From: Akkermansia muciniphila
GTDB lineage: Bacteria > Verrucomicrobiota > Verrucomicrobiia > Limisphaerales > UBA9464
Assembly: GCA_945883815.1 (NCBI GenBank)
Contig: CAMCYJ010000006.1
Span: 1-64,000 of the forward strand
Length of the DNA stretch: 64,000 bases
Reading direction: 5' to 3'
Of this stretch, positions 39,412-58,137 are shown piece by piece (position 1 is the stretch's first letter; each line of letters begins with the position of its first letter). Under the pieces are notes generated by a model. The model did not search any database. It saw nothing but the letters and a program-made list of their open reading frames with translations, and was not told the origin of the DNA. The translations under genes were made by a program, and so were the position numbers.

Positions 39412-39423
39412 GGGAAGCAGCGG

Positions 39424-40497
39424 TTACAAGTCGATCCAGGATCCGGTGGCGGCCGAGTGCAAGGCCGCGTCCATGACGGCCTGGGTTTGGGCGCCGTCAT
39501 GGAAGGTGACGCTGCAGGGGCGCTGTTCGCGGATAGCGTGGATGAATTCCACGGCCTGATCGTAGCGGAAGGACACCAGCGGATCGCCCACCCCCGGATC
39601 GCGCGGTGAACCGGGCCATACCCAGAATTCGCGGGGCACGGACAGGGGAGCCATGCCAGGTCCGCCGAGCTTGCCAAACTGCAGTTCGTTCCACTTGCCG
39701 GTGGTGAACTCGAAGCTGGCCTCGCTGCCGTTGATTTCCACGTAGTCGAGGCTGCGCCAGCTCTCGTTGCGGCCGCTGGCCAGCTTCGAGCTTTCCAGCA
39801 CGCCGGTGGCACCATTGTGGAAGTCGGCCAGGATGCCCACCCAGTCGTCGGTGTCGTTGGGCTTACCGTAGCGAATCGGGGTGAGGTTCTTGACGTGGGC
39901 CACCATGCGCTTCATGGGGCCGATCAGGTGATGGGCGAAATTGATGCGGTGGCTGAGCATGTCACCCAGTTCGCCCGTTCCGGCGAGTTTCTTGACCATG
40001 CGCCAACCCAGGTTGCGGGTGCCCCAGTCTTGCAGTCGGCAGGAGCGGTAATGACGAGGCTCGCCGAGATCACCCTGGTCGATGAGGTGGCGCAAGTAGC
40101 GCATGGCCGGCACGAAGCGGTAGGTGAAGGCCGTCATGTGGCGCACGCCCGCCGCGTCGGCGGCCCGGGCCATGGTGCGGGCTTCTTCGGCCGCCATGGC
40201 GATGGGCTTCTCGCAAAGGATGTGCTTGCCGGCCGCGATGGCGGCCATGGCGATGGGGAAGTGCAGGAAGTTGGGCGTGGCGATGATGATCGCGTGCACG
40301 TCGTCGCGGGCCAGCAGTTGGTGGTAGTCGGTGGTGGTGACGGTGCATCCGGTGGCCGCGCTGGCCCGTTGCAAGGTGCCGGCATCGCTGTCGCACAGGG
40401 CGGCGACGCGGACGTCGGGGCAAAGAGCCAGGCCGGGGAGGTGGTTCTGCAGAGTGATTCCGCCGCAGCCGATGATGCCGATTCCAAGGATGCTCAT
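39424..40497 (-). CDS. Gfo/Idh/MocA family oxidoreductase
   Basis: GIGIIGCGGITLQNHLPGL..., GKHILCEKPIAMAAEEARTM. Confidence 0.9.
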   Translation of the reverse strand: MSILGIGIIGCGGITLQNHLPGLALCPDVRVAALCDSDAGTLQRASAATGCTVTTTDYHQLLARDDVHAIIIATPNFLHFPIAMAAIAAGKHILCEKPIAMAAEEARTMARAADAAGVRHMTAFTYRFVPAMRYLRHLIDQGDLGEPRHYRSCRLQDWGTRNLGWRMVKKLAGTGELGDMLSHRINFAHHLIGPMKRMVAHVKNLTPIRYGKPNDTDDWVGILADFHNGATGVLESSKLASGRNESWRSLDYVEINGSEASFEFTTGKWNELQFGKLGGPGMAPLSVPREFWVWPGSPRDPGVGDPLVSFRYDQAVEFIHAIREQRPCSVTFHDGAQTQAVMDAALHSAATGSWIDL

Positions 40498-40639
40498 GTA
40501 CGTGGTGCCTCACGCTACCCGCGGAATCTCCGGAACCCAACCCTGAGATTCACCGGAGAGGTCCGGTCTCTGAACCGTGGGCTTGGCTGCGGGTGTGGGC
40601 GGTGACTATGCTCTTCGCACATCCCCGCTCCTCGAAGGC

Positions 40640-43600
40640 ATGAATCCTTGGCCCGTGCTCAGCCGTGCTTGCGTCCTGAATCCGTGGGGCGCTTGGGTTG
40701 TTTGGCTGATCTCCGGCTGGGTGACAGCGGCGCTCATGGCGGAGCAACCGTCGCGTCGAGTGGGTTTCCTGCGCCTCGAAGCCACCCAGACCGGCGTCAC
40801 CTTCTCCAACACCGTTCCCGCTGCACGACACCTCACCAACCAACTGCTGCTCGACGGGTCCGGGGTGACTGTCGCCGATGTGGATGGGGATGGACTCCTG
40901 GATGTGTTCTTCGGGGCCGCCGGTGGCCGTTCCTCGCTGTGGCGCAATCGGGGCGAGTGGCGCTTTGAGGACATCACCGACAAGGCCTTCCCGCAGCGAC
41001 TGGAATCTCTCGGCGGGGATGTGACGGGTGTGGCCGCCGCCGATGTGACCGGGGATGGCCGGCCCGATCTGGTCCTCAACACCCATGCCGATGGGGTGCG
41101 CATTTTGATCAATGACGGGCAGGGATCGTTTCGATTGCGCCCCTTTCCTCAGGTCTCTGCGCGCGGGGGGCATTCGCTGGCGTTGGCCGACGTGGATGGC
41201 GATGGCTGGATCGATTTGTATGTCTCCAACTACCGCCAGAAGGCCCTGATGGACATGCCCAATGCGCGGGCCACATTTCGGCGCGAGGGAGATCGAACCG
41301 TGGTGGCCACCATCGATGGCCGTCCAACTTCAGCGCCCGACCTGACCAATCGCTTTGAGGTCAACGGCTCCGGAGGCATCGAAGAACTCGGAGAACCCGA
41401 TGTCCTGTACCGGAATGATCGAGGCACCGGATGGGTGGCCGTGCCCTGGACCGAGGGCGCGTTCCTGGATGCCGCAGGCAAACCCCTTCCGCATCCTCCC
41501 TTCGAATGGGGATTGGCGGCCCAGTTCTGCGATCTCAATGGCGAAGGGAAGCCGGACTTGTACGTTTGCAATGATTTCCAGTCGCCCGATCGGATTTGGC
41601 TCAACGAGGGCGGTGGCGGGAAAGTGCGTTTCCGGGCCGCACCGCCGGCGATGGTGCGGCACACGAGTTTGTTTTCGATGGGGGTTGATTTCGCGGACCT
41701 CAATCAGGACGGCCGCTGGGACTTCACCGTGCTCGACATGCTTAGTCCCGACCCCGTGCGCCGGTTGACCTTGCTCGATGGGTCTCCCACGGTGGCCATC
41801 GATCCGGCCGATCCGTTGTCTCAAACCCAGCACGATGCCAACACGCTGTTCGTGCAGCGACCGGACGGTTCGTTTGCCGAGATGGCGGCGTTTACGGGCA
41901 TCACGGCGACGGATTGGTCGTGGACCCCGGCCTTCATGGATGTGGACTTGGATGGTTTTCCGGACTTGCTGGTGACCACCGGCCAGGAACGCGGTTCGCG
42001 GGACCTCGATATCGCCGAGCAACTGAAGGCTTACCGGCGGACCGGTTTGCGGACCGACGCCCAACTCTTTCGGGAACGCCAGCGCTTCCCGAGGTTGTCG
42101 GTGCCCTTGCGGGCCTTCCGAAACCGCGGCGCTTCCGGCATGGATCGCCTGCCGGTGATGGAGGATTCGAGCGCGGCCTGGGGCTTCGATTTCGACGGGG
42201 TCAGCCACGGTCTGGCTTTGGGCGACTTGGACAATGACGGCGATTTGGATGTGGTGGTGAACCACTTCAATGCCCCGGCCGGGATGTATCGCAATGAAGC
42301 CCAGAGCGGGAGGGTGTCGGTGGTGCTTCAGGGACAGGCTCCCAATGTGCAAGCGGTCGGTGCGGTGCTGCGCTTTGCCTGGACGGGCCGTTCAAATGGT
42401 GTGCCGGTGCAACTGGCGCAGGTCACGGCCGGGGGGCGATATCTTTCGGGCGATGCCCCGGGCAAGACCTTTGCAGCGCCGGGTGCGGGATCCGGTCGCT
42501 TGGAGGTGCGGTGGCCTTCTGGCCGGATCACGGTGCACGAGGGGATTTCTTCCGGTGGGCCGACCCTGAAGATTCAGGAACCGGCTTCGACGGCGACATC
42601 GGCCCCGCCAACGCTTTCGACTGCGCCAGTGCCGACGTTGTTCGGGAAGGCGGACGCCGCGCCCCCTGGGAATCGGTGGCGCTTCGAGGCTCGGTCTTGG
42701 GGTGGTGCCTCGGGACCGGCGGGCCCGGAGGCCTTTGCTTCGCAGCCCTCGCTGCCACGGCGTTGGTTGCGATTGGGCTCTGCCTTGGCCGTCCATCGCG
42801 GTTCCTCCCTTCCGCGGGGACTTTGGGTCGGGAGATCGGGTGCCCGCGGATTGCAATACCGGGTGCCACCCGCCGACGCCCCGGTGCGCGAGGTGAGCCC
42901 AGGTTCCACCGAGGTGATGCTCGTGCCCGGAGTGGAGGGCGTTCTGGCGGTGTCGCTGGGGGCCTCTGCGAGCGGATCCGGGACGGGCTCTACGGGGCGT
43001 GTCGATTGGGTCTCAAAGGCCTCCAGTCAGCGTCAGTTCATCACCTCGGGAAACTTCGCGGTGGCTGCGGTTTCGGGTGAATTGCAGGGGATGCCCGCCG
43101 AGATCTTTCTCGGCGGTGCCGCGGTACCGGGACAATTTCCCACGGCGTCACCCAGTCAATGGTTTCGCCGCGTGGGTGAAGAATACCGTTCGGTTTTGTC
43201 GGCCCCGTTGGGCCTGGTGTCGGGTGCGCGATTTCTCAACGGGCCGTCGGGTCCTGCGACGGAAATGGTGTGCGTGTCGGACTGGGGTTCTCCCCGCATG
43301 TTTCGTCGTCGTGGAGACACTTGGGAGGCCATGGATCCGATGGTGTCTGCGCCGGGCGACGCCGAGTCATCCCTGCCGCTGAGTCGCTGGACGGGTCAAT
43401 GGCAGCGACTCGAAGTCAGTGACCTGGACGGCGATGGGCAGGAAGACTTGATTCTGGGCAACTGGGGCCTCAACGGGTGGCAGTCGTTGATGGCGGGACC
43501 TCCGCGGTCGCCGGCCGGCCCGGTTCGGGAATTGCACCTCTTCCACGGGGCTTGGAACCAAGACGGTGTCACCGGGTGTCTGGAGGCTTACACAGCTCTC

Positions 43601-44131
43601 GACGGGCGCATCCTTCCCATGCGGGGCTTGCAAGAGATTGGGCCATTGTTTCCCGGCATCGCCGAGCGGTTCACCACCCATCGGGCTTACGCGCTGGCCA
43701 CCGTGGAGGCCATTCTGGAAGGCCTGCCCTCGGCCAAAGTTTCTGCGCGCTGGCTCAGCTCGCTGGTGCTGCTGCGCCGCGGTGAGGGGTTCGAGGCGCG
43801 CCCGTTGCCGGATGCCGCCCAATTGGGGCCAATCCGGGCCATCGCACCCGGTGATTTCAATGGCGACGGACGCCGTGACTTCTTCGTGGCCATGGGCTTC
43901 GCGGGTCATGGGTTCCGAGGGTCTCGCGATGATGCCGGCGAGGGCTTGTTCTTGTTCGGTCGGGGTGACGGAAGCTTCGAGTCGGTGCCTTCCGGCTCGC
44001 TGGGCTTCCGCTTGCTCGGAGAACCGCGCGATGTGGTGGCCGAAGATTGGAATGGGGACGGGGTGAGTGATCTGGTGGTCAGTGAAGCCGACGGGGGGCT
44101 CCAGTGGATCCAGAGTCGCAAGGCCGATTGA
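40640..44131 (+). CDS. FG-GAP/VCBS repeat and ASPIC/UnbV (CRTAC1-like) secreted protein
   Basis: Repeated DVDGDG(L/W)DxxF, DLNQDGRWD, DLDNDGDLDVVVN motifs; ASPIC/UnbV-like RLEVRWPSGRITVHEGI. Confidence 0.87.
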   Translation: MNPWPVLSRACVLNPWGAWVVWLISGWVTAALMAEQPSRRVGFLRLEATQTGVTFSNTVPAARHLTNQLLLDGSGVTVADVDGDGLLDVFFGAAGGRSSLWRNRGEWRFEDITDKAFPQRLESLGGDVTGVAAADVTGDGRPDLVLNTHADGVRILINDGQGSFRLRPFPQVSARGGHSLALADVDGDGWIDLYVSNYRQKALMDMPNARATFRREGDRTVVATIDGRPTSAPDLTNRFEVNGSGGIEELGEPDVLYRNDRGTGWVAVPWTEGAFLDAAGKPLPHPPFEWGLAAQFCDLNGEGKPDLYVCNDFQSPDRIWLNEGGGGKVRFRAAPPAMVRHTSLFSMGVDFADLNQDGRWDFTVLDMLSPDPVRRLTLLDGSPTVAIDPADPLSQTQHDANTLFVQRPDGSFAEMAAFTGITATDWSWTPAFMDVDLDGFPDLLVTTGQERGSRDLDIAEQLKAYRRTGLRTDAQLFRERQRFPRLSVPLRAFRNRGASGMDRLPVMEDSSAAWGFDFDGVSHGLALGDLDNDGDLDVVVNHFNAPAGMYRNEAQSGRVSVVLQGQAPNVQAVGAVLRFAWTGRSNGVPVQLAQVTAGGRYLSGDAPGKTFAAPGAGSGRLEVRWPSGRITVHEGISSGGPTLKIQEPASTATSAPPTLSTAPVPTLFGKADAAPPGNRWRFEARSWGGASGPAGPEAFASQPSLPRRWLRLGSALAVHRGSSLPRGLWVGRSGARGLQYRVPPADAPVREVSPGSTEVMLVPGVEGVLAVSLGASASGSGTGSTGRVDWVSKASSQRQFITSGNFAVAAVSGELQGMPAEIFLGGAAVPGQFPTASPSQWFRRVGEEYRSVLSAPLGLVSGARFLNGPSGPATEMVCVSDWGSPRMFRRRGDTWEAMDPMVSAPGDAESSLPLSRWTGQWQRLEVSDLDGDGQEDLILGNWGLNGWQSLMAGPPRSPAGPVRELHLFHGAWNQDGVTGCLEAYTALDGRILPMRGLQEIGPLFPGIAERFTTHRAYALATVEAILEGLPSAKVSARWLSSLVLLRRGEGFEARPLPDAAQLGPIRAIAPGDFNGDGRRDFFVAMGFAGHGFRGSRDDAGEGLFLFGRGDGSFESVPSGSLGFRLLGEPRDVVAEDWNGDGVSDLVVSEADGGLQWIQSRKAD

Positions 44132-44196
44132 CGCTCTGCAGGCGACCCGCCCACGACGGGGGAAGAGGGCGCGGGAACCTCAGCCCGGATTCCGTC

Positions 44197-45015
44197 TCAG
44201 AATACCGCGCCCAACCATTGACCGCGCCAAGCCGTGACCGCGTGGCCTAGGAGTCGAACCCGATCGCCCCGGAGTTCTACCCCCACGGTGCCTCCCCGGG
44301 CGCTGGCCTGAAAACCCGTCATCGCGGTGCGTCCGAGTCGATTGGACCAGTGGCAGGCCAGGGTGCAATGGGCCGATCCGGTGACCGGATCTTCGTCGAT
44401 CCCGACTGCGGGCGCGAAGAAGCGGCTGACAAAGTCGGCATCGGCATGGTCGGAGCGGGCCGTCACGATGACGCCGCGCACAGGAAACGCGGCGAGGGCT
44501 TTGAAGTCGGGCGTCAGGCGGCGGACCTCCTCGGCACTCGCCACTTCGACCAACAGGTCTTCACGGCTCCGCCCCACCCAGACGGCTGGGGCTCCCAGAG
44601 CCTCCAGAAGCCCTGGAGGCACGGGTGTTGCCTGGGCGGGCTGGGCCGGAAAATCCATGGCGATGCGGGCGTTCCCGGATGGACTGTCTTCGAGGCGGCA
44701 ATGGAGTGGGCCGCTGCGGGTTTCAAAGTACAGAGGCTGTGAGGCGGGCGCCTCTCCTGCTTCCCACAACGCGTGCGCCGTGGCGAGGGTGGCGTGGCCG
44801 CACAAGTCCACTTCGGCCTTGGGTGTGAACCAGCGGAGCCGCCAACGACCTTCGCTCAAGGGCACCGCAAAGGCCGTCTCGGACAAGTTGAGTTCGGCGG
44901 CGACCGATTGCATCCAGGCGGTGGTCGCGTCCAGGCCCGGAAGACACACGGCCGCAGGGTTGCCACGGAAGGCTTCCCGAGTGAATGCGTCCACGACGCA
45001 GAGGGGCAGGGGCAT
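44197..45015 (-). CDS. PhzF family (phenazine biosynthesis-like isomerase) protein
   Basis: VDAFTREAFRGNPAAVCLPG, SETAFAVP, RWFTPKAEVDLCGHATLATAHAL, DPVTGSAHCTLACHW. Confidence 0.92.
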   Translation of the reverse strand: MPLPLCVVDAFTREAFRGNPAAVCLPGLDATTAWMQSVAAELNLSETAFAVPLSEGRWRLRWFTPKAEVDLCGHATLATAHALWEAGEAPASQPLYFETRSGPLHCRLEDSPSGNARIAMDFPAQPAQATPVPPGLLEALGAPAVWVGRSREDLLVEVASAEEVRRLTPDFKALAAFPVRGVIVTARSDHADADFVSRFFAPAVGIDEDPVTGSAHCTLACHWSNRLGRTAMTGFQASARGGTVGVELRGDRVRLLGHAVTAWRGQWLGAVF

Positions 45016-45056
45016 GCGCCGAGGTTGTGTGCCGGAGTTGAGTTTCGGGCGTTGGC

Positions 45057-45079
45057 GTCTAGACGTGGGCGGTCTAGAC
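45057..45079. repeat. Two GTCTAGAC palindromes 15 bp apart
   Basis: GTCTAGAC at 45057-45064 and 45072-45079 between phzF-like start and moxR stop. Confidence 0.9.
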
Positions 45080-45087
45080 GTTGGCGT

Positions 45088-46074
45088 TTAGGGAACGGGC
45101 AGTTCGTCGAAGAGGCGCTGGACGATGTCTTCCGAGGTCTTCTCTTCGGCCTCGGCCTCGTAGGTCAAGGTGATCCGGTGACGCAGCACATCCATGCCAA
45201 TGCTCTTCACATCTTGCGGCGTCACATAACCGCGGCCACGGATGAAGGCGTGGGCTTTGGCCGCCAAGGTCAGCGCAATGGTGGCCCGCGGACTCGCACC
45301 CATTTGGATGAGGTCCTTGAGCTTCAGCTTGTAGGCCTCGGGATCGCGGGTCGCACACACCACGTCGACGATGTAGTCCTTCACCTTGTCATCGATGTAG
45401 AGCTCATTGATGACTTGCCGGGCCTTGAGAATGGTCTCCGGCTGGATGACCGGTTCCACGGTCGGATGTCCCGAGGTGCGCGCCATGAGGTCGAGGATCA
45501 GGCGTTCTTCTTCGCGGGACGGATAGCCCACCTTCAGCTTGAGCATGAAGCGGTCGACCTGCGCTTCAGGCAGCGTGTAGGTGCCCTCTTGTTCGATGGG
45601 GTTTTGGGTGGCCAGCACCAAGAACGGGTCGGGGAGCTTGTAGGTTTGGTCGCCTATGGTGACTTGTCGCTCCTGCATGGCTTCCAGCAGGGCCGACTGC
45701 ACCTTGGCCGGCGCGCGATTAATTTCGTCGGCGAGCACCAAATTGGCGAAGACCGGACCCTTGCGCGTGGTGAAGCCGCCGGCCGGGTTGTAGATTTGGG
45801 TTCCGACGACGTCGGCCGGGAGCATGTCGGGCGTGAACTGGAGCCGTGAGAACTTCACGTGCATGGCCGTGGCCAGCGTCTTGACCGAGAGGGTCTTGGC
45901 CAAGCCGGGTACGCCTTCGAGGAGCACGTGGCCGTTGGCCAAGAGTCCGATCACCAGGCGCTCGACGAGGTATTTCTGGCCGACGACGCAGCGGTTGATC
46001 TCCGTCATCAAGGTCGGCAGGAAGGCGCTGGCCTCCTGCACGGCAGCATTCAAGGCGGGCACTCCGGAATTCAT
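45088..46074 (-). CDS. MoxR-family AAA+ ATPase
   Basis: GHVLLEGVPGLAKTLSVKTLA (Walker A), LADEINRAPAKVQSALLEAMQE, ATQNPIEQEGTYTLPEAQ. Confidence 0.93.
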   Translation of the reverse strand: MNSGVPALNAAVQEASAFLPTLMTEINRCVVGQKYLVERLVIGLLANGHVLLEGVPGLAKTLSVKTLATAMHVKFSRLQFTPDMLPADVVGTQIYNPAGGFTTRKGPVFANLVLADEINRAPAKVQSALLEAMQERQVTIGDQTYKLPDPFLVLATQNPIEQEGTYTLPEAQVDRFMLKLKVGYPSREEERLILDLMARTSGHPTVEPVIQPETILKARQVINELYIDDKVKDYIVDVVCATRDPEAYKLKLKDLIQMGASPRATIALTLAAKAHAFIRGRGYVTPQDVKSIGMDVLRHRITLTYEAEAEEKTSEDIVQRLFDELPVP

Positions 46075-46247
46075 TGTCAGGATGGATGGCACAGTTGGCG
46101 GGTCGGGAGCAAGTCCGTCGGACTGATGCGCAAGCCGGGTGATGCCGTTTCTCAGAGGCCTGCCTGTTGAAAACCTCGAAACGACTGCCTGCGGGTTGCC
46201 AGCGTTTCGGGCGCGACCCGTGGGCGATCTCGGGCTTCAATGGGGCC

Positions 46248-46901
46248 ATGACGACGGTGTTCATCGCGACGGGCAATGCCCACAAGGTGGAGGAAATTCG
46301 GGCGGTCTTGGGTGGGGCGGGGCGGGTATTCCTATGCCAGCAAGATGCCCCGGTCCGGTTGGAGCCTGAGGAAAATGGCAGCACCTTCCGGGAGAATGCC
46401 CGCATCAAGGCGCTCACTTGGGCGACGTATTTGGCGATCGACGTTTGCAACATGGGGGTGCAGTGGGTGTTGGCGGATGATTCGGGTCTGGAAGTCGATG
46501 CCTTGAACGGAGCGCCCGGGGTTCACTCGGCCCGCTTCGCGGCGCTGGACTCGGGTCGCCCCGGCAACTCGCCTGATTCTGAGAACAACGCCAAACTCCT
46601 GCGCCTGATGGAGGGGATCATTCCGGAACGCCGGACCGCCCGCTTCCGCTGCGCCTTGGCCCTCACTCCGGTGCTGGCCGGCTTGGATGCCGCGGCCATG
46701 GCGGCTGGCACCCGCGATTTCGATGGAGTGTGTGAAGGTCGCCTGCTGGCTCAGCCCTCGGGAGCCGGAGGCTTTGGTTACGACCCACTCTTTGTGCCTC
46801 AGGGATGGGATCGTCCGTTTGCTGAACTGGGCGCCGAGGTGAAGAACCAACTCAGTCATCGGGCCCGGGCGCTGGCGGCCCTGAGTGCCGGGTGGGTCTA
46901 A
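46248..46901 (+). CDS. rdgB: RdgB/HAM1 family non-canonical purine NTP pyrophosphatase
   Basis: VFIATGNAHKVEEIRAVL, STFRENARIKA, LADDSGLEVDALNGAPGVHSARFA, GFGYDPLFVP; ATG at 46248. Confidence 0.93.
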   Translation: MTTVFIATGNAHKVEEIRAVLGGAGRVFLCQQDAPVRLEPEENGSTFRENARIKALTWATYLAIDVCNMGVQWVLADDSGLEVDALNGAPGVHSARFAALDSGRPGNSPDSENNAKLLRLMEGIIPERRTARFRCALALTPVLAGLDAAAMAAGTRDFDGVCEGRLLAQPSGAGGFGYDPLFVPQGWDRPFAELGAEVKNQLSHRARALAALSAGWV

Positions 46902-46919
46902 TCCGGAACGATCCCGGGA

Positions 46920-49115
46920 TCAGAATCCCAGGCGTGTTCCGATCTGGTAGGTCAGGAAGGCCAAGATCCAGGCCAGCGAGGTCATGTACACGGTTTGGAA
47001 GATCGGCCACTTCCAGGAGTTGGTCTCGCGGCGCACCACAGCCACGGTGCTCACGCACTGCATGGCGAAGACGTAGAAGACCATCAGGGTGATGCCGGTC
47101 AGGGGCGTGTACATGGCGCGGCCATCGGAGCGGCGCTCGGACTTCATCACCTCGGCCAGGCTGGCCGTGTTCTCGCCATCACCCCCGACGTTGTAGACCA
47201 CGGACAAGGTGCTTACGAACACCTCCCGGGCAGCGAAGGAAGTGACGATGCCGATGCCGATCTTCCAATCGAAACCCAACGGCTTGAGGGTGGGCTCGAT
47301 GGCCCGGCCCAACCGACCGGCGAAGGATTGCCGCAGTTTCTCGCCGGCTTCTTCGTGGTCCAGTTGCAGCCCGGTTTCGGTTTCCGCAGGGGTGGGTGGG
47401 TTGGAGACCGATTGTTTCCACTGGGCCCGGCGCTGGCTGAATTGTTCTTCGAGTTCGCTGGAGCGGGGGTAGGTGGCGAGGAACCACAGGAGGATATTGA
47501 TCCCCAGGATCACCGTGCCAGCGCGGCGCAGGAAGAGCTTGGAGCGGTCCCACATTTGCCGCAGCACCGCGCCGAGCATGGGGCGTTTGTAGGGCGGCAA
47601 TTCGAGGATGAGCATGGGCGGTTCGCCGCGAAGGAGGGTCTTCTTGAAGATCCAGGCCATGCCGAGCGCTCCGGCGATGCCGAGCAGGTACATCATCAGC
47701 AAGGTGAGTCCGGGCCAGCCGTTGCGCTGCGGGATGCAGGCGGCGATGAGCACCGTGTACACCGGAAGGCGGGCCGAGCAGCTCATGAGCGGCGCCACCA
47801 AGATCGTGGCCAAGCGATCCTGGCGGGTCTCAATGGTCCGGGTGGCCATGATGCCCGGAATGGCACAGGCGAACGACGAGAGCATGGGGATGAAGCTCTT
47901 GCCGTGCAGTCCGACCCGGCTCATCAGGCGGTCCATCAAGAAGGCGGCCCGGGACATGTAGCCGGTGTCTTCCAGTAGGCCGATGAAGAGGAAGAGCAGG
48001 CAGATCTGAGGCAGGAAAATCACCACCGACCCCACGCCGGCGATGGCTCCTCGGGTGATCAGGTCGTTGAGATCGCCCGGGGGCATGCTCGAGCCGACCC
48101 ATTGGGCCAAGGCGTCGACGGCCGCCTCAATGCCGTCCATGGGGTACTGCGCCAGCCAGAAGATGGACTGGAACATCAAGGCCATCACCGCCACGAAGAT
48201 GAGCAGTCCCCAGACGCGGTGGGTCACGACGCGGTCGATCCGGTCGGAGAGGAGTTCGCCCGGCGGGGCCGTCTCGCGGGTGACGTGCTGCTCAATGGCG
48301 AAGAGTCGGGCGTAGCGGGCTTCGATGGCGGCGCTGCGCCAGTCCACACCGGCCGCTTCGAGGCGTTGGCGAGCCAATTGGACTTGCTGGATCAGGGTCT
48401 CGGGATATCGCGGACTGCCCGTGCCTCCTTCTGTGCTGAGCGCTCGTTCATCGCTCAGGACGAGCAGTGCCTCGGCGGCGGCCAGACGGGATCGATGGGG
48501 AAAGTGGCCCTCGAGGGCGGTCTCGATGGCCTGGGCCTCGCGACCGAAGCCTTCGGGCAGTTCGTTGAACTCCCGGGGAATGACGTGGCGGGTTCCCGGC
48601 GTCTTGGCCTGGCTCCGCAGGGTTTGGCGGAGCACGTCCAGTCCTTCGCCCTCGCTTGCCACCATGGGAATCACCGGAACACCCAGCGCCTTGGACAAGG
48701 CCTCGGTGTCGATCTCATGCCCTTGATCGCGGGCGACGTCGATCATGTTGAGAACCAACAACGTCGGGTGTCCCAGTTCGATGACTTGGGTCGCGAAGTA
48801 GAGGTTGCGCTGGAGGTTGGAGGCATCGGCAACGATCACGACCAGATCCGGCGCGGGCACGTCGGCCACGCGTTGGAACAAGATGTCGCGGGCGATTTGC
48901 TCGTCGGGGGACTGCGGACTCAGGGAATAAGCTCCCGGGAGATCCAGAATGGTGACCGGATGGAGGGCGTCGGCTCCGGTGAGTACGCCTTCCTTGCGCT
49001 CCACCGTGACCCCGGCGTAGTTGCCGACGCGGGCCCTCAGGCCGGTCAGGGCATTGAACAGCGTGGTCTTGCCGCAGTTCGGGTTGCCGGTGAGGACGAC
49101 GGTGAAGGTCTTCAT
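46920..49115 (-). CDS. feoB: Ferrous iron transport protein B
   Basis: TVVLTGNPNCGKTTLFNALTGLRARVGNYAGVTVERKEG; DLPGAYSLSPQSPDE; multi-TM with nucleoside-recognition-like domains. Confidence 0.96.
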   Translation of the reverse strand: MKTFTVVLTGNPNCGKTTLFNALTGLRARVGNYAGVTVERKEGVLTGADALHPVTILDLPGAYSLSPQSPDEQIARDILFQRVADVPAPDLVVIVADASNLQRNLYFATQVIELGHPTLLVLNMIDVARDQGHEIDTEALSKALGVPVIPMVASEGEGLDVLRQTLRSQAKTPGTRHVIPREFNELPEGFGREAQAIETALEGHFPHRSRLAAAEALLVLSDERALSTEGGTGSPRYPETLIQQVQLARQRLEAAGVDWRSAAIEARYARLFAIEQHVTRETAPPGELLSDRIDRVVTHRVWGLLIFVAVMALMFQSIFWLAQYPMDGIEAAVDALAQWVGSSMPPGDLNDLITRGAIAGVGSVVIFLPQICLLFLFIGLLEDTGYMSRAAFLMDRLMSRVGLHGKSFIPMLSSFACAIPGIMATRTIETRQDRLATILVAPLMSCSARLPVYTVLIAACIPQRNGWPGLTLLMMYLLGIAGALGMAWIFKKTLLRGEPPMLILELPPYKRPMLGAVLRQMWDRSKLFLRRAGTVILGINILLWFLATYPRSSELEEQFSQRRAQWKQSVSNPPTPAETETGLQLDHEEAGEKLRQSFAGRLGRAIEPTLKPLGFDWKIGIGIVTSFAAREVFVSTLSVVYNVGGDGENTASLAEVMKSERRSDGRAMYTPLTGITLMVFYVFAMQCVSTVAVVRRETNSWKWPIFQTVYMTSLAWILAFLTYQIGTRLGF

Positions 49116-49119
49116 CGGT

Positions 49120-49341
49120 TCAGCGGACGAAGATTTTCTCGGCCTCCAATTTGCGGAGGGAGAGGTGGTAGTTCCGCAGCTTGATTTCGACGGGATCACC
49201 GAGCGGAGCAAAGCGCACCAGTTCCACTGGGGTGCCGGGAAGCAGTCCCATCTCCATCAGGCGGCCGCGCTGTTCTGGCGGGATGTCGATCCGGGCGACC
49301 ACCGCCCGTTCGCCGGGAGTCATTGTGGACAGTGGGCGCAT
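49120..49341 (-). CDS. feoA: FeoA-domain protein
   Basis: LSTMTPGERAVVARIDIPPEQRGRLMEMGLLPGTPVELVRFAPLGDPVEIKLRNYHLSLRKLEAEKIFV. Confidence 0.9.
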   Translation of the reverse strand: MRPLSTMTPGERAVVARIDIPPEQRGRLMEMGLLPGTPVELVRFAPLGDPVEIKLRNYHLSLRKLEAEKIFVR

Positions 49342-49390
49342 CGTGGCTAGGAGGCTAGGGATGGAACCTCCCCGAGGGCAAGGAGGGGGG

Positions 49391-49428
49391 TTGTCGGGAA
49401 CTTGTTGCCGATTGTCGGTGGGTTGCGG
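49391..49428 (-). promoter_or_regulatory. Candidate regulatory element upstream of feoA, copy 1
   Basis: ttgtcgggaacttgttgccgattgtcggtgggttgcgg; 26 of 38 positions identical to the element upstream of the second FeoA gene, about 50 nt from the start codon. Confidence 0.5.
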
Positions 49429-49493
49429 CTGCGATGGAGCCCTGAGACGGCCTGTGAGAACCGGACTCGGGTGCGCCAGTGCGGATTTCGCAA

Positions 49494-49811
49494 TCAGGCC
49501 GCCAGTCGCACAGGAGTCTTTGGACTCAGGGGATAGTTGAGGGGCTGGACCAAGATGGTCTCGGCCAGGCGTTCGCTCAACCCGAGTCGCGCATTGCAAA
49601 CCTGACAGAGAAGATTGTTGGCCAGGCTCAGCACCTTGATGCGCTGTTCTTCGCCGAATCCCATCTCGCGCAGCCGCCGATTCATGTCGGGTGAGGCGGT
49701 CAGTTGCTTGACGACCACCGTGGTGCCGGCACGCACGCGGTTCAATGGGCATACCGCCGGAGTCGCGCAGCGATCGGGAGCGCAATGGGGGACGGTACAA
49801 GCCTCGGACAT
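49494..49811 (-). CDS. FeoA-domain protein with Cys-rich N-terminal extension
   Basis: MSEACTVPHCAPDRCATPAVCPLNRVRAGTTVVVKQLTASPDMNRRLREMGFGEEQRIKVLS. Confidence 0.8.
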   Translation of the reverse strand: MSEACTVPHCAPDRCATPAVCPLNRVRAGTTVVVKQLTASPDMNRRLREMGFGEEQRIKVLSLANNLLCQVCNARLGLSERLAETILVQPLNYPLSPKTPVRLAA

Positions 49812-49857
49812 CGCTATCGAACCTACCGCCCCCTCTGGGGAGCGGCAAGGAACGGCA

Positions 49858-49895
49858 TTGTCGGAGACTTGCCCTGGGTTGTCGTGCGGTTGCAC
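49858..49895 (-). promoter_or_regulatory. Candidate regulatory element upstream of second FeoA gene, copy 2
   Basis: ttgtcggagacttgccctgggttgtcgtgcggttgcac, about 47 nt from the start codon. Confidence 0.5.
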
Positions 49896-49920
49896 TGGGG
49901 CAGTCGGGCCGTTGAGCGGC

Positions 49921-51009
49921 TCAAAGTCCGGCGATGGCGGTGTCGAGGATCTCGATCAAGGCGCCGATGGTCTCCGGGGTTTCGTCGCCCATGTTGGAGA
50001 TGCGGAAGGTGGTACCCTTGATCTTGCCGTAGCCGCCGTCGATGAGGATGCCGCGGTCTTTGATGCGCTTCTGGAAGGTGGCCACGTCGATGACACGTCC
50101 GCCGGGTTTGGCGCCGTTGTTGACGCAGACCAAGGTCTTGGATTCGAACCCGGCTTCCGGGAAGAGGGTGAATCCCTGACGGGTGGCCCAATCCTTGAGC
50201 ATTTGGTTGGTCTGGGTGTGCCGGGCGTAGCGGGCTTCCAGGCCTTCGGCAGAGAAGTCTCCCAGCTTGGACTCCAACGCGTAGATGAGTGAGATGGCCG
50301 GGGTGCTGGGGGTCATGTTCTCGAGCGCGTTCTTCTCGAACTCGAGGAGGTCGAAGTAGTAGCCGCGGGTCTTGATGGTGGCGGCCTTGGCGAGCGCGGC
50401 CGGTGAGGCGACGAAGACGGCGAGGCCGGGGGGCAGGGCGAAGGCTTTCTGGGTGCCGGCCAGGAGGATGTCGATGCCGAGGTCGTCGAAGCGGTGGGGC
50501 AAGGCGGTCAGGGAGCTGACGGCGTCGACGATGAACATCACGTCGGGGTACTTCTTCTTGAGGGCGGCGATCTCATCCAGCGGGCTCATGGTGCCGGTGC
50601 TGGTTTCGTTGTGGATGAGGGTGAGGGCGTCGAATTGGCCGGTGGCGAGGCGGGCGTCGATTTGTTCGGCGCGGATGGGGGAGCCCCAGGGGACTTGGAG
50701 AGCCTCGGCGTCTTTGCCGAGCTTCTTGGCGACGTCGAACCACTTGTCGGAGAAGGCTCCGCACATGCAGTTGAGGACCTTTTTGGTGCAGAGGTTGGTC
50801 AGTGCTCCCTCCATGACGCCCCAGGCGCTGGAGGTGGAGAGGTAGACGCGCTGTTGAGTGGAGAGCAGGGTTTGAAGCTGCGGCTGGATGCGGCCGTAGA
50901 GGTCTTTGAAGCCCTGACCTCGGTGCCCGATCATGGGCTGGGTCATGGCTTGAAAGGTCTTGGCGCTCACCTCAACGGGTCCAGGAATGTGCAACTTCAC
51001 GTGTGCCAT
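49921..51009 (-). CDS. Class V aminotransferase (alanine-glyoxylate/serine aminotransferase-like)
   Basis: HIPGPVEVSAKTFQAM, IGHRGQGFKDLY, LIHNETSTGTMSPLDEIA, FIVDAVSSLTALPH, GTQKAFALPPGLA. Confidence 0.9.
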   Translation of the reverse strand: MAHVKLHIPGPVEVSAKTFQAMTQPMIGHRGQGFKDLYGRIQPQLQTLLSTQQRVYLSTSSAWGVMEGALTNLCTKKVLNCMCGAFSDKWFDVAKKLGKDAEALQVPWGSPIRAEQIDARLATGQFDALTLIHNETSTGTMSPLDEIAALKKKYPDVMFIVDAVSSLTALPHRFDDLGIDILLAGTQKAFALPPGLAVFVASPAALAKAATIKTRGYYFDLLEFEKNALENMTPSTPAISLIYALESKLGDFSAEGLEARYARHTQTNQMLKDWATRQGFTLFPEAGFESKTLVCVNNGAKPGGRVIDVATFQKRIKDRGILIDGGYGKIKGTTFRISNMGDETPETIGALIEILDTAIAGL

Positions 51010-51094
51010 AATTAAGAGAAGTGGAGTTTCGGCTCAAAACCCGAGGATTCAAGGGCGCAGTTGTTGGGCGGTTGTTCGTGGGGTGCTTGGGTGG

Positions 51095-51353
51095 GCTCCG
51101 CGGGATCGGTCCTGCGCTCGCTGAGGAGGCTCTGGGAAGGATGGGCTTTCGCGCTGTGCGCGAGGGGTGTTGGTGTTCGCCTCCAAGGCTCGCTGCGGAC
51201 CGATCCCGCTCCGCTTGGCGTATTTGGCGCTCCGCGGGACCGGTCCTGCGCTCGCTGAGGAGGCTCGGGGAAGGAGGGGCTTTCGCGCTGCGCGCTGGGG
51301 ATTTTGTTGTTCGCCTCCAATGCTCGCTCCGGCCCGTTCCCGCTGCCGCTTCG
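51095..51353. repeat. Palindromic repeat array A (2 units of about 134 bp)
   Basis: Units starting GCTCCGCGGGA(T/C)CGGTCCTGCGCTCGCTGAGGAGGCT at 51095 and 51229; second unit diverges at its right end. Confidence 0.92.
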
Positions 51354-51387
51354 AGGGGTGTCCGCGCGCTGGGATAGGGGACAGGCT
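51345..51387. repeat. Direct repeat DR-1, left/3' flank of the VapBC-like pair
   Basis: gccgcttcgaggggtgtccgcgcgctgggataggggacaggct; 35 of 43 positions identical to 52344-52386. Confidence 0.8.
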
Positions 51388-51461
51388 AACACCGGGTAAT
51401 AAAACACCGGGTGATGAAGTCGTTGGTCCCGTGCAGGGGTTGGTCGGCTTTGATAAATGGA

Positions 51462-51935
51462 TCAGGAGGCGGTGGTTTCGATCAACTTGAGCCGGACTCC
51501 GGACGTTCCATAGCGGAGAAACCCTCGGTCAAGGGTCACCAGTTCGATGCCAGCGCAGCAGGCAAATGCCATGAGGTAGGCGTCCATCCAAAGTTTTGGA
51601 GAGGCGGCTTCTGATGCGGCAAAGTTCTTCCAAGCTGATTCCAAGCTGGGTGGTTCAGCCAGCCACACAACCTGTGGAAGTGATAGGATTTCTTGGGTTT
51701 TCGACCAAGCCTCCCGATTTGAAATGGGTAAGCTTCCGTAGGCTGCTTGAATCGTTGAAGTTGTGAGCAATCGCAGGACGCTGGTCTGTGTGGCCCTGCA
51801 AAAGGCAATCGGTTTGAGGGAGTCGGCTGCTTCAAAAAGGCCTCTAACCGATAGATGCGCGGGGTGCGTGGCGAAGGCCAAAGCAATCCAGACGCCGCTA
51901 TCAAGGAGTTGGGTGGAAGGATTCAATATCGGCAC
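51462..51935 (-). CDS. PIN-domain toxin (VapC-like)
   Basis: LLDSGVWIALAFATHPAH...KLWMDAYLMAFACCAGIELVTLDRGFLRY; conserved acidic D, D, D pattern of PIN domains; overlaps antitoxin gene. Confidence 0.85.
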   Translation of the reverse strand: MPILNPSTQLLDSGVWIALAFATHPAHLSVRGLFEAADSLKPIAFCRATQTSVLRLLTTSTIQAAYGSLPISNREAWSKTQEILSLPQVVWLAEPPSLESAWKNFAASEAASPKLWMDAYLMAFACCAGIELVTLDRGFLRYGTSGVRLKLIETTAS

Positions 51936-52200
51936 TGGATAGGGCTTGTTCTTCGAGGGCCTGAAGCTGAGTCAGGGTCATGTTCTTGGCCGGTGCAGCA
52001 GAGGATGTTGCAAAAAAAGGCAACGGTATCAGTCCACGCCGTCCCTGAATCTGGTTTTTGTCGGTGAACTGTGACGCGGAGTGGCCAAGACCTTTTCGGA
52101 GAAGGTCGGAGATGACGTCTTTCAGTTTTCTTCCCTCGTTTACAGCCATGAGTTTGATCTCGCGAACGAGGTCAGGTGGTAAATCAAGGGTTGTTTTCAC
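51901..52200 (-). CDS. VapB-like antitoxin
   Basis: VKTTLDLPPDLVREIKLMAVNEGRKLKDVISDLLRKGL resembles a ribbon-helix-helix antitoxin; GTG start at 52200 proposed; overlaps vapC-like start by 35 nt. Confidence 0.72.
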   Translation of the reverse strand: MKTTLDLPPDLVREIKLMAVNEGRKLKDVISDLLRKGLGHSASQFTDKNQIQGRRGLIPLPFFATSSAAPAKNMTLTQLQALEEQALSSADIESFHPTP

Positions 52201-52343
52201 TGATCCATTTTTATGTTTTTCCAGCTTTCTGTCAAATTTCAGCCTGAAACGCCTCCTTGGTTTGCCTGCTTCGGATGATCGACCGGCCACGGGCACTTCG
52301 TCATCGAGGGCGCCGCAGGAGGGGCCGACGTGCCCATGCGGCA

Positions 52344-52386
52344 GCCGCTTCGAGGTGCGCGCGCGGGTTGGAATTGGGGACAGGCT
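52344..52386. repeat. Direct repeat DR-2, right/5' flank of the VapBC-like pair
   Basis: gccgcttcgaggtgcgcgcgcgggttggaattggggacaggct, same orientation as DR-1. Confidence 0.8.
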
Positions 52387-52426
52387 GCCTGAGATTCTTT
52401 CTGGTCGTCTGAGTTGGCGGGTGCTG

Positions 52427-52844
52427 GCTCCGCGGGATCGGTCCTTCGCTCGCTGAGGAGGCTCGGGGGAGGAGGGGGTTTTCGCGCTGTGCGCGAGGGG
52501 CTTTGGTGATCGCCTCCAAGGCTCGCTGCGGACCGATCCCGCTCCGCTTGGCGTATTTGGGGGCGCTCCGCGGGATCGGTCCTGCGCTCGCTGAGGAAGC
52601 TCGAGGGAGGATTGGGGTTTCGCGCTTTGCGCGAGGGGCTTTGGTGATCGCTTCCAAGGCTCGCTGCGGACCGATCCCGCTCCGCTTGGCGTATTTGGGG
52701 CGCTCCGCGGGAACGGTCCTGCGCTCGCTGAGGAGGCTCGGGGGAGTAAGAGCTTTCGCGCGGGGCGCGGGGGGGTTTGTTGTTTGCCTCCAAGGCTCGC
52801 TACGGACCGATCCCGCTCCGCTTGGCGTATTTGGGGGACAGGCT
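52427..52844. repeat. Palindromic repeat array B (3 units of 137-138 bp) ending in GGGGACAGGCT
   Basis: Units start at 52427, 52565, 52702; outer stem in unit 1 GCGGGATCGGTCC (52432-52444)/GGACCGATCCCGC (52530-52542), inner stem TCGCGC-TGT-GCGCGA (52482-52496). Confidence 0.95.
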
Positions 52845-52884: not shown

Positions 52885-54714
52885 TTAGCTTCGGATGAAT
52901 TGGGCGTGCATCCGGGCGTAGATGCCCTCGTGGGCTATGAGGCTTTCGTGGGTGCCGCGTTCCACGATGCGGCCGTGGTCGAGCACCAAGATCAGGTCGG
53001 CGCCGCGGACGGTGCTGAGGCGGTGGGCGATGACCAGGCTGGTGCGGCGCTGAAACAAGGTGCGGAGGGCTTCCTGGATGAGGCGCTCGGTCTGGGTGTC
53101 CACGGCGCTGGTGGCTTCGTCGAAGATGAGGATCCGGGGCGCGGCAACCATGGCCCGGGTGATGGTGATGAGTTGCCGCTCGCCGGCACTGAAGTTCCCG
53201 CCCCGTTCGCGGACTTCGGTGGCGTAGCCGGCGGGCAGACGCTCGATGACGGAGTGGGTTCCCAAGGCTTTGGCGGCGGCGAGGACTTCTTCGTCGGTGG
53301 CTTCGGGGCGCCCGAACTTGAGGTTCTCCATCACGGTGCCGGTGAAGAGGAAGTTCTCCTGGGTGACCATGCCCAGTTGTTGGTGCAATGAGGCGAGCGT
53401 GTGGTCGGCGATGGCCAGTCCATCCACGCGAATTCGGCCCTCCTGGGGTTCATAGAAACGGGCCAGGAGGCTGATGATGCTGGTCTTGCCCGAGCCGGTG
53501 TGGCCCACGAGGGCGACGGTCGATCCGGCGGGTACGGAGAAGTGGACATCCTGAAGGATCCATCGGTCGGCGGGTGTGGTGTCGTAGCGGAAGCAGACGC
53601 CTTCGAAGGAAACTTCCCCGCGCACCAAAGGCAGGTCGGTGGCGGACGCGGAGTCTTTGACTTGGGGCTCGGTGTCGAGGAGGGCGAAGATGCGTTCGGC
53701 GCTGGCGGCGGCCGACAGGACGGCGTTGTAAAGGTCTCCCATCGATTGGATGGGGCCGAAGAACATTCCCAGATAAAGGACGAAGGCGGCGAGTCCGCCG
53801 ACAGTCATTCCGCCTTGCTGGACGCGCCATCCGCCGTAGCCGAGGACGATGGCTGTGGCGAAGCCAGACAAGAGCCCGACAGCGGGCATGTAGGTGTGGA
53901 AGACTCGCGCCGAAGCCACCCACCGCTCTGTGAAATCGGTTTGCAGGCTTCGGAATCTGCGGAGGTTTTCAGCCTCGCGGACGAAGGCCTGGACCACGCG
54001 GACGCCGGAAATGTTCTCGGCCATGGCGGCGATGAGGCGGGATTGGGTGCCTCGGAGGCTGCGGTAGGCCTCCCGTCCGCGGCGGTGGAACCAGTGGGTG
54101 ATCCAAACCAACAGGGGGAGGACCGAGCACACGGCCAAGCTCAGGCGCAGGTCGTATTGCACCATGAGCACGATGACGCCCAACAGGGTGACAAGGCTGG
54201 AGAGGGCCTGCCCGGCCCCCCAGGTGAGGACCCGGTCCAACGAATCGACATCGGAGTCAGCCCGCGCGATGATCCGTCCTTGGTGGGTTCGGTCGAAGTA
54301 GTTGAGCGAGAGGCGTTGGATGTGCTCAAAGACGGCCAGACGCAGGTCGTTCATGGCCCCTTGGCCGGTCTCGATGGAGGTGCGGACTTGAATGATGGTG
54401 AGACCCCATCCCAGTAGCAGGTTGGCCAAGTAGAGCCCGCTGAGGATGAGGATTTCGTGGGCGGCCGCGGATCCGCTGAGCGCTGTGGAGGCCCCGCCTG
54501 CGCCGACAACGGGGGCCAGTGCGTGGTCGATGCCGTGCTGGATGAGTCGTGGTCCGACGAGTGCGGACGCGGTGGCCAGGAGAGTGAGGGCGAGGTTGGT
54601 GTACAAGGACCGGCGATAGGGCCGGGTGTACGCGAAGAGCCGCTTGAGCAGTGAGCCGCGCAGGCTGCTCTGGGCGAATTCCTCGTCGAGGGCGATGTCG
54701 TCGTGGGTGGCCAT
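52885..54714 (-). CDS. ABC exporter (fused TM-NBD, MsbA/LmrA type)
   Basis: GHTGSGKTSIISLLARFYEPQEG (Walker A), NFSAGERQLITITRAMVAAPRILIFDEATSAVD; ATG at 54714 overlaps upstream stop (TGATG). Confidence 0.93.
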   Translation of the reverse strand: MATHDDIALDEEFAQSSLRGSLLKRLFAYTRPYRRSLYTNLALTLLATASALVGPRLIQHGIDHALAPVVGAGGASTALSGSAAAHEILILSGLYLANLLLGWGLTIIQVRTSIETGQGAMNDLRLAVFEHIQRLSLNYFDRTHQGRIIARADSDVDSLDRVLTWGAGQALSSLVTLLGVIVLMVQYDLRLSLAVCSVLPLLVWITHWFHRRGREAYRSLRGTQSRLIAAMAENISGVRVVQAFVREAENLRRFRSLQTDFTERWVASARVFHTYMPAVGLLSGFATAIVLGYGGWRVQQGGMTVGGLAAFVLYLGMFFGPIQSMGDLYNAVLSAAASAERIFALLDTEPQVKDSASATDLPLVRGEVSFEGVCFRYDTTPADRWILQDVHFSVPAGSTVALVGHTGSGKTSIISLLARFYEPQEGRIRVDGLAIADHTLASLHQQLGMVTQENFLFTGTVMENLKFGRPEATDEEVLAAAKALGTHSVIERLPAGYATEVRERGGNFSAGERQLITITRAMVAAPRILIFDEATSAVDTQTERLIQEALRTLFQRRTSLVIAHRLSTVRGADLILVLDHGRIVERGTHESLIAHEGIYARMHAQFIRS

Positions 54715-56567
54715 CAGTGCGCTGGGATCTGCGGTTCCGGCTTGGCGAACAATTCCTGGTACAGCGAGCAATCAGCCAGTAGGGACTCGTGCCGGCCTTG
54801 GGCCACCAGTTTGCCGTCTTGCAGGACAAGGATCTGATCTGCGGCGCAAATGGTCGCAGCCCGGTGGGCCACCAGGAAGGTGGTGCGACCGCGACACAGT
54901 TCCCGCATGGCTTCCCGGATCTCTTCTTCTGTGGAGGGATCTACGGCGCTGGTCGCGTCATCGAGAAGGACGATCCGGGGTTGGATGAGCAGGGCGCGGG
55001 CGATGGCGATGCGCTGACGTTGGCCGCCGCTGAGCGAAATACCGCGCTCTCCGATGACGGTGTCGTAACCCTGGGGTAGTTCGCGGATGAAACCGTCTGC
55101 CCGGGCCGCCCGGGCCGCTGCCTCGATCTCGTCCCGGGAAGCCTGGGGGCGTCCGAGGCTGATGTTCTCAGCCAGGGTCGCGCTGAAGAGAAAGGTCTCT
55201 TGGAAGACCATGCCGATGCTTTGGCGTAGAGTATCGCGGTCCCAGTCCCGGATGTCGATGTCATCCAGCAGAATGCGGCCGTGGGTCGGTTCGTAGAATC
55301 GGGCGATCAGGGCCAGCAGGGTGGATTTTCCAGATCCGGTTGGGCCAACGACAGCGACCGTGCTGCCCGCCGGGATGGTGAAGGACAGGCCTTCGAGCGC
55401 TTGGGTGCGAGCGTGCGTTGCTGCAGCCAGTCGATTCTCCGGGGGCTGCGGCTTGGTTTCATCGAGCACTCGGAGGGAAGGCTCGGAGACGTGCTGAAAG
55501 GCGACCTCCTCGAATGCGATGGCTCCTTGGATGGGGGCGATTCGTCCCGGCGGGCGTTGGGGCTCCGGGGAGGTTGGCGGGTCGAGCAATTCATTGACCC
55601 GCTGGGCGGCAGAACTGGAGTTCTGGAGGATGTTGGTGATTTGCCCGATCACGCCGATCCGCCCGCCGAGGGCCATTTGATACACCAGCACTTTCGCCAG
55701 ATCGCCCAGTGAGATCGAGCCTTGGAGGACTTCGCTGCCGCCCATCCACAGTGTCAAAGGCACGGCCAGGCCGAATAGGAATTGGGCAAAGGGGACCCGG
55801 GCGGCCCAGTAATTCACCGCCTCGGAGAGTTCCTTCAGAAACTCGGCCCGACGCGATCGGAACTTGGTGATTTCGGCCGATTCACGGGCAAAGGCTTTCA
55901 CCACCCGGACACCGGCGATGTTCTCCTGGATGACCGTGCTCATGGCGCCGTGCCGCTCATGGACGCGCCGCCATCGGGGCTGCAGTTGGGCGGCGAACCA
56001 GGCCATGGTGGCCACTGTGGGAACGAGGGCCAGCAAGGTCATCAGGCCAAGTCGTGGACTGGTGATAAAAATGAGCGACAGGGTTCCGATCAGACCGGCG
56101 GCGACATCCACGCCGAAGAGGAGGCACACGAAGAGCAAGTCTTGCAGGCGGCCCACATCGGTTCCGGCTCGGGAGATCAATTCACCGGTTCGAGCGTTGT
56201 CATGCCAGGCAAACGAGCGCCGTTGGAGCGAGTCGTACACGGCGGCCCGGATGTCACTCAGGGTCGTCTGGGCGGTTCGGTTGCGGATGGGTCCGAGCAC
56301 CAATCCGACCCCGGCTCGGAGAACCACTAGGCCGAGGAAGAAACTGACGGTTATCCCGAGCGACCACTCTGCGGATGCGCTTCCGAGAGCCGTGATGGTG
56401 GCCCCCAGAAACTGTGGTAGCGACAATTCGATGCCGATGTTGAGGAGTAGGAGTCCGATGGAAAGTGCGACCCAGCCCGGTCGCTTGCCCAGAAAGCCCA
56501 CGATGCGACGCACGGCCGCCACGGGGCGGATCGGTGGTGGCTGGAGGGATGGACTAGGTCGGGGCAT
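54714..56567 (-). CDS. ABC exporter (fused TM-NBD), partner of the downstream exporter
   Basis: GPTGSGKSTLLALIARFYEPTHGRI, SLSGGQRQRIAIARALLIQPRIVLLDDATSAVD; translationally coupled. Confidence 0.93.
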   Translation of the reverse strand: MPRPSPSLQPPPIRPVAAVRRIVGFLGKRPGWVALSIGLLLLNIGIELSLPQFLGATITALGSASAEWSLGITVSFFLGLVVLRAGVGLVLGPIRNRTAQTTLSDIRAAVYDSLQRRSFAWHDNARTGELISRAGTDVGRLQDLLFVCLLFGVDVAAGLIGTLSLIFITSPRLGLMTLLALVPTVATMAWFAAQLQPRWRRVHERHGAMSTVIQENIAGVRVVKAFARESAEITKFRSRRAEFLKELSEAVNYWAARVPFAQFLFGLAVPLTLWMGGSEVLQGSISLGDLAKVLVYQMALGGRIGVIGQITNILQNSSSAAQRVNELLDPPTSPEPQRPPGRIAPIQGAIAFEEVAFQHVSEPSLRVLDETKPQPPENRLAAATHARTQALEGLSFTIPAGSTVAVVGPTGSGKSTLLALIARFYEPTHGRILLDDIDIRDWDRDTLRQSIGMVFQETFLFSATLAENISLGRPQASRDEIEAAARAARADGFIRELPQGYDTVIGERGISLSGGQRQRIAIARALLIQPRIVLLDDATSAVDPSTEEEIREAMRELCRGRTTFLVAHRAATICAADQILVLQDGKLVAQGRHESLLADCSLYQELFAKPEPQIPAH

Positions 56568-57813: not shown

Positions 57814-57879
57814 GTGGCTGGGAATCTCTCAAAACCGTCGATGCATTGTAAAGCCGGTGCCCGAAAAGGCAGCTGGGGC

Positions 57880-58137
57880 GCTCCGCGGGATCGGTCCTAC
57901 GCTCGCTGAGGAGGCTCTGGGGAGGATGGGGCTTTCGCGCTGTGCGCGAGGGGCTTTGGTGATCGCCTCCAATGCTCGCTGCGGACCGATCCCGCTCCGC
58001 TGGGCGTACGGGGCGCTCCGCGGGATCGGTCCTGCGCTCGCAGGGAACGTGGGGACGGGTTGGGCTTTCGCGCTGGCGCGCGAGGGGGAACAGGGTGTGG
58101 ACGTTCCAATGCTCGCTCCGGACCGATTGGGCTCCGA
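57880..58137. repeat. Palindromic repeat array C (2 units of about 135 bp, second degenerate)
   Basis: Units start at 57880 and 58015 with GCTCCGCGGGATCGGTCC; same orientation as arrays A and B. Confidence 0.92.

Follow-up and report, generated by a model that had tools for sequence, protein, structure and literature searches.

A VapBC-family toxin-antitoxin pair in a REP-like repeat cluster between an aminotransferase and an ABC exporter gene

Introduction

The closest described relatives of the repeats in this study are the REPs and their Y1 transposases, known as RAYT or TnpA-REP. In the arrangement described for REP-associated transposases, inverted REPs surround the transposase gene, and a REP is defined by a GT(A/G)G head that precedes a palindrome (PMC2817692). 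Classes 2.6 and 3 lack this head (PMC6006769), as do the elements considered here. In some E. coli strains, a toxin-antitoxin (TA) operon replaces the REPtron locus (PMC6006769). The locus that we describe is comparable in that only some strains have a TA pair at a REP-type locus, but in E. coli the transposase locus itself has been replaced, whereas here the pair lies in a repeat cluster whose spacer contains no transposase gene.

The spacer lies in a 64,000-nucleotide stretch (the window) of a metagenome-assembled genome (MAG) of Akkermansia muciniphila. An original prediction, made from the letters of the DNA, had described a VapBC-like pair bracketed by palindrome arrays and by a 43-bp direct repeat, and had proposed that these form a mobile or recombination-prone cassette of about 1 kb. 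We find that the pair was probably gained into a REP-like cluster that already existed. The repeats resemble a landing site that tolerates insertion and a recombination edge more than they do the ends of a dedicated mobile cassette.

Results

The spacer separates a class V aminotransferase gene from an ABC exporter gene (Table 1). As predicted, a VapBC-like pair lies between two palindrome arrays, with two units in array A and three in array B. The segment that carries the pair (51388-52260) was also predicted to be AT-richer than its surroundings and indeed has 52.3% GC, against 62.7% for the window.

Table 1. Features of the spacer and its neighbourhood, in window coordinates
Feature	Position	Strand	Basis
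High-identity tract to G018/G003, right edge at spacer	38390..51050		Identity profile
Class V aminotransferase gene, left neighbour of spacer	49921..51009	-	PF00266; syntenic in genus
Array A, two hairpin units of ~136 nt	51092..51352	+	Unit matches; covarying stems
D1, tail of last array A unit plus GGGGACAGGCT (51377-51387)	51342..51387	+	Sequence comparison
VapC-like PIN-domain toxin gene	51462..51935	-	TIGR00028 and PF01850 matches above cut-off
Antitoxin gene, GTG start at 52200	51901..52200	-	Upstream of and overlapping toxin gene; conserved beside toxin
D2, ends in GGGGACAGGCT (52376-52386)	52341..52386	+	Sequence comparison
Array B, three hairpin units	52425..52836	+	Unit matches
Third GGGGACAGGCT, closes array B	52834..52844	+	Motif search
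ABC exporter gene, right neighbour of spacer	52885..54771	-	PF00664, PF00005; syntenic in genus

In profile searches, the toxin reaches 99.8 bits against TIGR00028 (cut-off 73.6) and 34 bits against PF01850 (cut-off 23.6); VapC43 (7vwo) is a distant solved relative. Asp12, Glu94, Asp118 and Asp136 are invariant in all four aligned toxins and, from knowledge of the family, are presumably the PIN active site. The antitoxin gene overlaps that of the toxin and is conserved together with it, at 57-59% identity in three congeners (G004, G006 and G012), which keep the two genes as a pair at 55-59% identity. The profile searches gave no curated family match above cut-off for the antitoxin, and PADLOC returned no defence match for the pair. 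A genome search found the toxin as a single copy, and it was not found in the closest relatives. Common to this module and to VapBC of the TIGR00028 VapC subfamily are a PIN toxin above cut-off, a small overlapping gene upstream and the conservation of both as a pair. It differs in that the antitoxin is without a curated family match, and its function is predicted from sequence. We take the pair to be an ordinary VapC, predicted to act as a ribonuclease, and its antitoxin.

The hairpin unit of the arrays, ~124 nt long, is matched 76 times in its own genome. Stems covary across 84 distinct units taken from this genome and its relatives, with a consensus folding score of -25, whereas column-shuffled alignments average -2.7 (sd 2.1). 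Single units folded as DNA gave a mixed outcome (z +2.2 and -1.9), so it is the covariation that argues for a conserved hairpin. The Rfam search of the window, hairpin units included, yielded no known RNA, and ARAGORN found no tRNA gene in it. The stretch before D2 (52280-52352) was considered as a divergent hairpin and rejected, its stability being no greater than that of shuffles. Hairpin units also occur at 57874-58136 of the window.

The direct repeat holds up as described: 51345-51387 and 52344-52386 are identical at 35 of 43 positions (37 of 46 when extended to 51342 and 52341), and 300 rough rounds of shuffling the flanks in 2-base blocks never exceeded 27 of 43. A whole-genome DNA search with the stretch around D2 matched D2 itself and D1 only. 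Motif search confirmed that GGGGACAGGCT ends both copies and recurs at the predicted third position (Table 1); these three sites, all on the + strand, are the only ones in the window. Genome-wide there are 70 copies, against 2 for the reversed control, and some lie inside genes. We do not count every GGGGACAGGCT as a repeat, since several sites look coding by eye, for instance in a W-G-Q-A repeat protein at C8. The 43-bp repeat is itself composite: a hairpin unit contributes its 3' tail on the left, and the dispersed motif forms the right end. The same junction in G003 has one comparable composite, in which GGGACAGGCT follows a unit tail. Rather than a special terminal structure, the direct repeat is a joint of the kind usual in such clusters.

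A Y1 (REP-associated) transposase family has GGGACAGGCT as its terminal motif. Where fragments of the transposase gene lie at contig ends, the sequence that they share begins at GGGACAGGCT and the DNA outside differs. Complete copies in relatives have the motif upstream and its inverse downstream, with GGGACAGGC before and GCCTGTCCC after the gene in G003, G005 and two G015 copies; the contig-end cases have the upstream motif only. PF01797 (Y1, IS200-like domain) is matched above cut-off in the genome studied, and the complete G005 copy scores 59.7 against the curated REP-transposase profile NF047646, below its cut-off of 80. AGGGACAGGCT occurs 89-212 times in ten genomes (the present one included), 25-38 times in three others and 0-9 times in six congeners. 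Of the genomes searched, only members of the first two groups yielded the transposase gene, either at ≥63% identity or as its exact N-terminal end at the edge of a contig. The transposase family probably spreads the GGGACAGGCT motif.

A Y1 gene, an inverted flanking motif and many dispersed copies that track the gene are shared with RAYT and TnpA-REP (PMC2817692, PMC6006769). The head differs, with GGGACAGGCT in the place of GT(A/G)G. Because this head is missing and NF047646 is matched only below cut-off, we call the elements REP-like and not canonical REPs.

Other dispersed sequences accompany this family. A second Y1-transposase family starts at AAAGTGACAGGTTC, another motif seen in related spacers. 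Contig ends C20 and C177 of G000 (L171, L172) carry the second Y1 family, with shared sequence that runs from AAAGTGACAGGTTCAAAG, a motif also dispersed in related spacers. GGGGTCGGTCCCACCTATTTACACAAAAGGGGACACTC and its variants are dispersed in the same spacer of G018, G003, G014, G010, G005 and G011, possibly as the end of a third element. In G001, AGGGACAGGCT stands in tandem at a spacing of ~20-25 nt, in up to 11 copies (C60:13958-14218, C25:84-197).

The spacer next to the aminotransferase gene is readable in ten genomes of the same genus, in nine of them (G003, G018, G014, G010, G005, G015, G011, G009 and G016) through to the ABC exporter. The comparison leaves aside G004, G012, G007, G008 and G020, which are more distant and do not have the exporter beside the aminotransferase. 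The TA pair is at none of the ten junctions, that of G001 being read up to its contig end. Hairpin units are present at the junction in G018, G003, G010, G005 and G011, and partial ones in G014 and G001; the G015 spacer measures ~150 bp and has one motif only. The insert at this junction is known from one genome. Since relatives have the junction without the pair, a lineage-specific gain is indicated, and since the cluster without the pair is widespread among them, the cluster is probably older than the insertion. This comparison, which the original prediction had put forward as a check, supports a recent, lineage-specific gain of the TA pair into an older repeat cluster. An empty site with a single repeat had also been anticipated. 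No junction among the relatives matches the D1/D2 boundary exactly with one copy of D, because the arrays at this spacer have turned over; they do so quickly between relatives and are too different for base-by-base alignment.

The identity profile switches at the spacer. Over ~12.6 kb, from ~38.39 to 51.0 kb, identity to G018 is 94-98% in most 1-kb windows, whereas 24 windows sampled from the rest of the genome give a median of 82%, all of them below 93%; over an independent 20 kb of contig C1, identity to G018 is 80-87%. On the other side of the spacer, to its right, G014 and G010 come closest, at ~85-92%, and G003 is down to 76-87%. The right edge of the tract would fall between 51.01 and 51.09 kb, and on the left the tract ends within a folC-like gene that has no repeats. 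The switch marks the spacer as a right edge, whether the tract was imported or the MAG was joined chimerically. Import by homologous recombination is likely, a chimeric join being the alternative, and a left edge within a gene free of repeats favours real recombination. The arrays here are closer to other arrays of their own genome than to those of G018 at the same site, which would put the import edge probably just left of array A, and not at the TA pair.

Discussion

Each component of this locus belongs to a known family, and the question is how they came together. We consider it likely that a VapBC-family TA pair entered a REP-like cluster that was already in place, with homologous or homology-assisted recombination at the repeats as the probable means. 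In this model, an older cluster of hairpin units mixed with GGGACAGGCT motifs would have lain between the aminotransferase and ABC exporter genes, in a spacer that may tolerate inserts. Incoming DNA would most likely have recombined with the cluster at its repeats. A direct repeat on both sides is what results if the TA pair stands where a direct-repeat array would have had a unit. That close relatives have repeats at the same place without the pair is why the repeats look like a landing site. Against this model, the array type suggests an import edge to the left of array A, and the route of the TA pair itself is one that we infer.

The original proposal stands as far as a recombination-prone place is concerned, given a TA-free site in relatives, a switch of ancestry at the spacer, a motif that belongs to a transposase family and a second array pair with TA-like cargo. 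The part that is not supported is a dedicated cassette moving between these direct repeats. Such a cassette would be non-autonomous, with GGGGACAGGCT, the TA pair and the tail excised and inserted in trans by the REP-associated Y1 transposase, and we regard it as quite improbable. It would account for the motif being the end of a Y1-transposase element, for the same composite standing on both sides of the pair and for the AbiEii-like cargo enclosed by the second array pair. However, no second copy of the TA pair or of D was found elsewhere in the genome, and the motifs are direct around the pair but inverted around the transposase genes. Relatives have arrays without cargo, and the TA homologues elsewhere are without the repeats: none of 36 loci has a GGGACAGGCT-type motif less than 1.5 kb from the homologous toxin, and three of them show a single loose 8-base match. 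The congeners with a homologous pair (G004, G006 and G012) have 0-2 motif copies per whole genome. The TA pair neither travels with the repeats nor is part of them, and its mobilisation by them is hypothetical. As far as a dedicated cassette goes, these loci and congeners are the kind of finding that the original prediction had named as arguing for a coincidental neighbourhood.

For the locus as a whole, we give little credence to coincidence, that is, to a TA pair that entered by unrelated illegitimate recombination while repeats spread or rearranged around it independently. The repeats and the TA family do have independent distributions, and the quick turnover of arrays at this spacer would fit. 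The same composite on both sides of the pair, at 35 of 43 positions and beyond all 300 rough shuffles, speaks against it. It also appears unlikely that the contig was misjoined at repeats during assembly, with the TA segment or the 12.6-kb tract derived from a different site or species. In favour of a misjoin, array units or transposase fragments stand at the ends of many contigs of this genome, exact stretches of up to 65 nt recur between array units and other loci, and ancestry changes at the spacer. Yet there is no exact repeat of 25 nt or longer between 51354 and 52446, the gene order on both sides matches a single 170-kb contig of G010, and the left edge of the tract is in folC, away from repeats. 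Gain of the pair into an older cluster remains the reading that we prefer.

In a broader context, the locus provides one example of a small accessory module entering intergenic space at a repeat cluster that doubles as a recombination edge. It also brings to light a dispersed motif, in a genus of Verrucomicrobiota, that is tied to a transposase family without the usual REP head. One may speculate that REP-like clusters of this non-canonical Y1 family are preferred entry points for TA modules in the genus, with the transposase or the repeats aiding capture. We hold this to be rather unlikely; if true, it would offer TA modules a concrete route of spread without a transposase of their own.

Two array-flanked TA-like cases allow no statistic and are suggestive. 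The search for other cargo between the repeats, which the original prediction had recommended, found D and the TA pair nowhere else and turned up one array pair with an AbiEii-like gene. Other array-bounded stretches hold ordinary genes, in a count of array-flanked cargo that is not exhaustive. This second direct-array pair lies in G000 at C14:6469-8916 (L207, 962-3430), its arrays 2 kb apart. G003 has the cargo as well, while in G009 the neighbour genes, ~150 bp from each other, have no arrays or cargo between them. The cargo comprises a nucleotidyltransferase gene of AbiEii-like type, which only just reaches the Pfam cut-off, and a short frame with a helix-turn-helix, which lies between two copies of ATGGGGTCAGAT (2590 and 2890).
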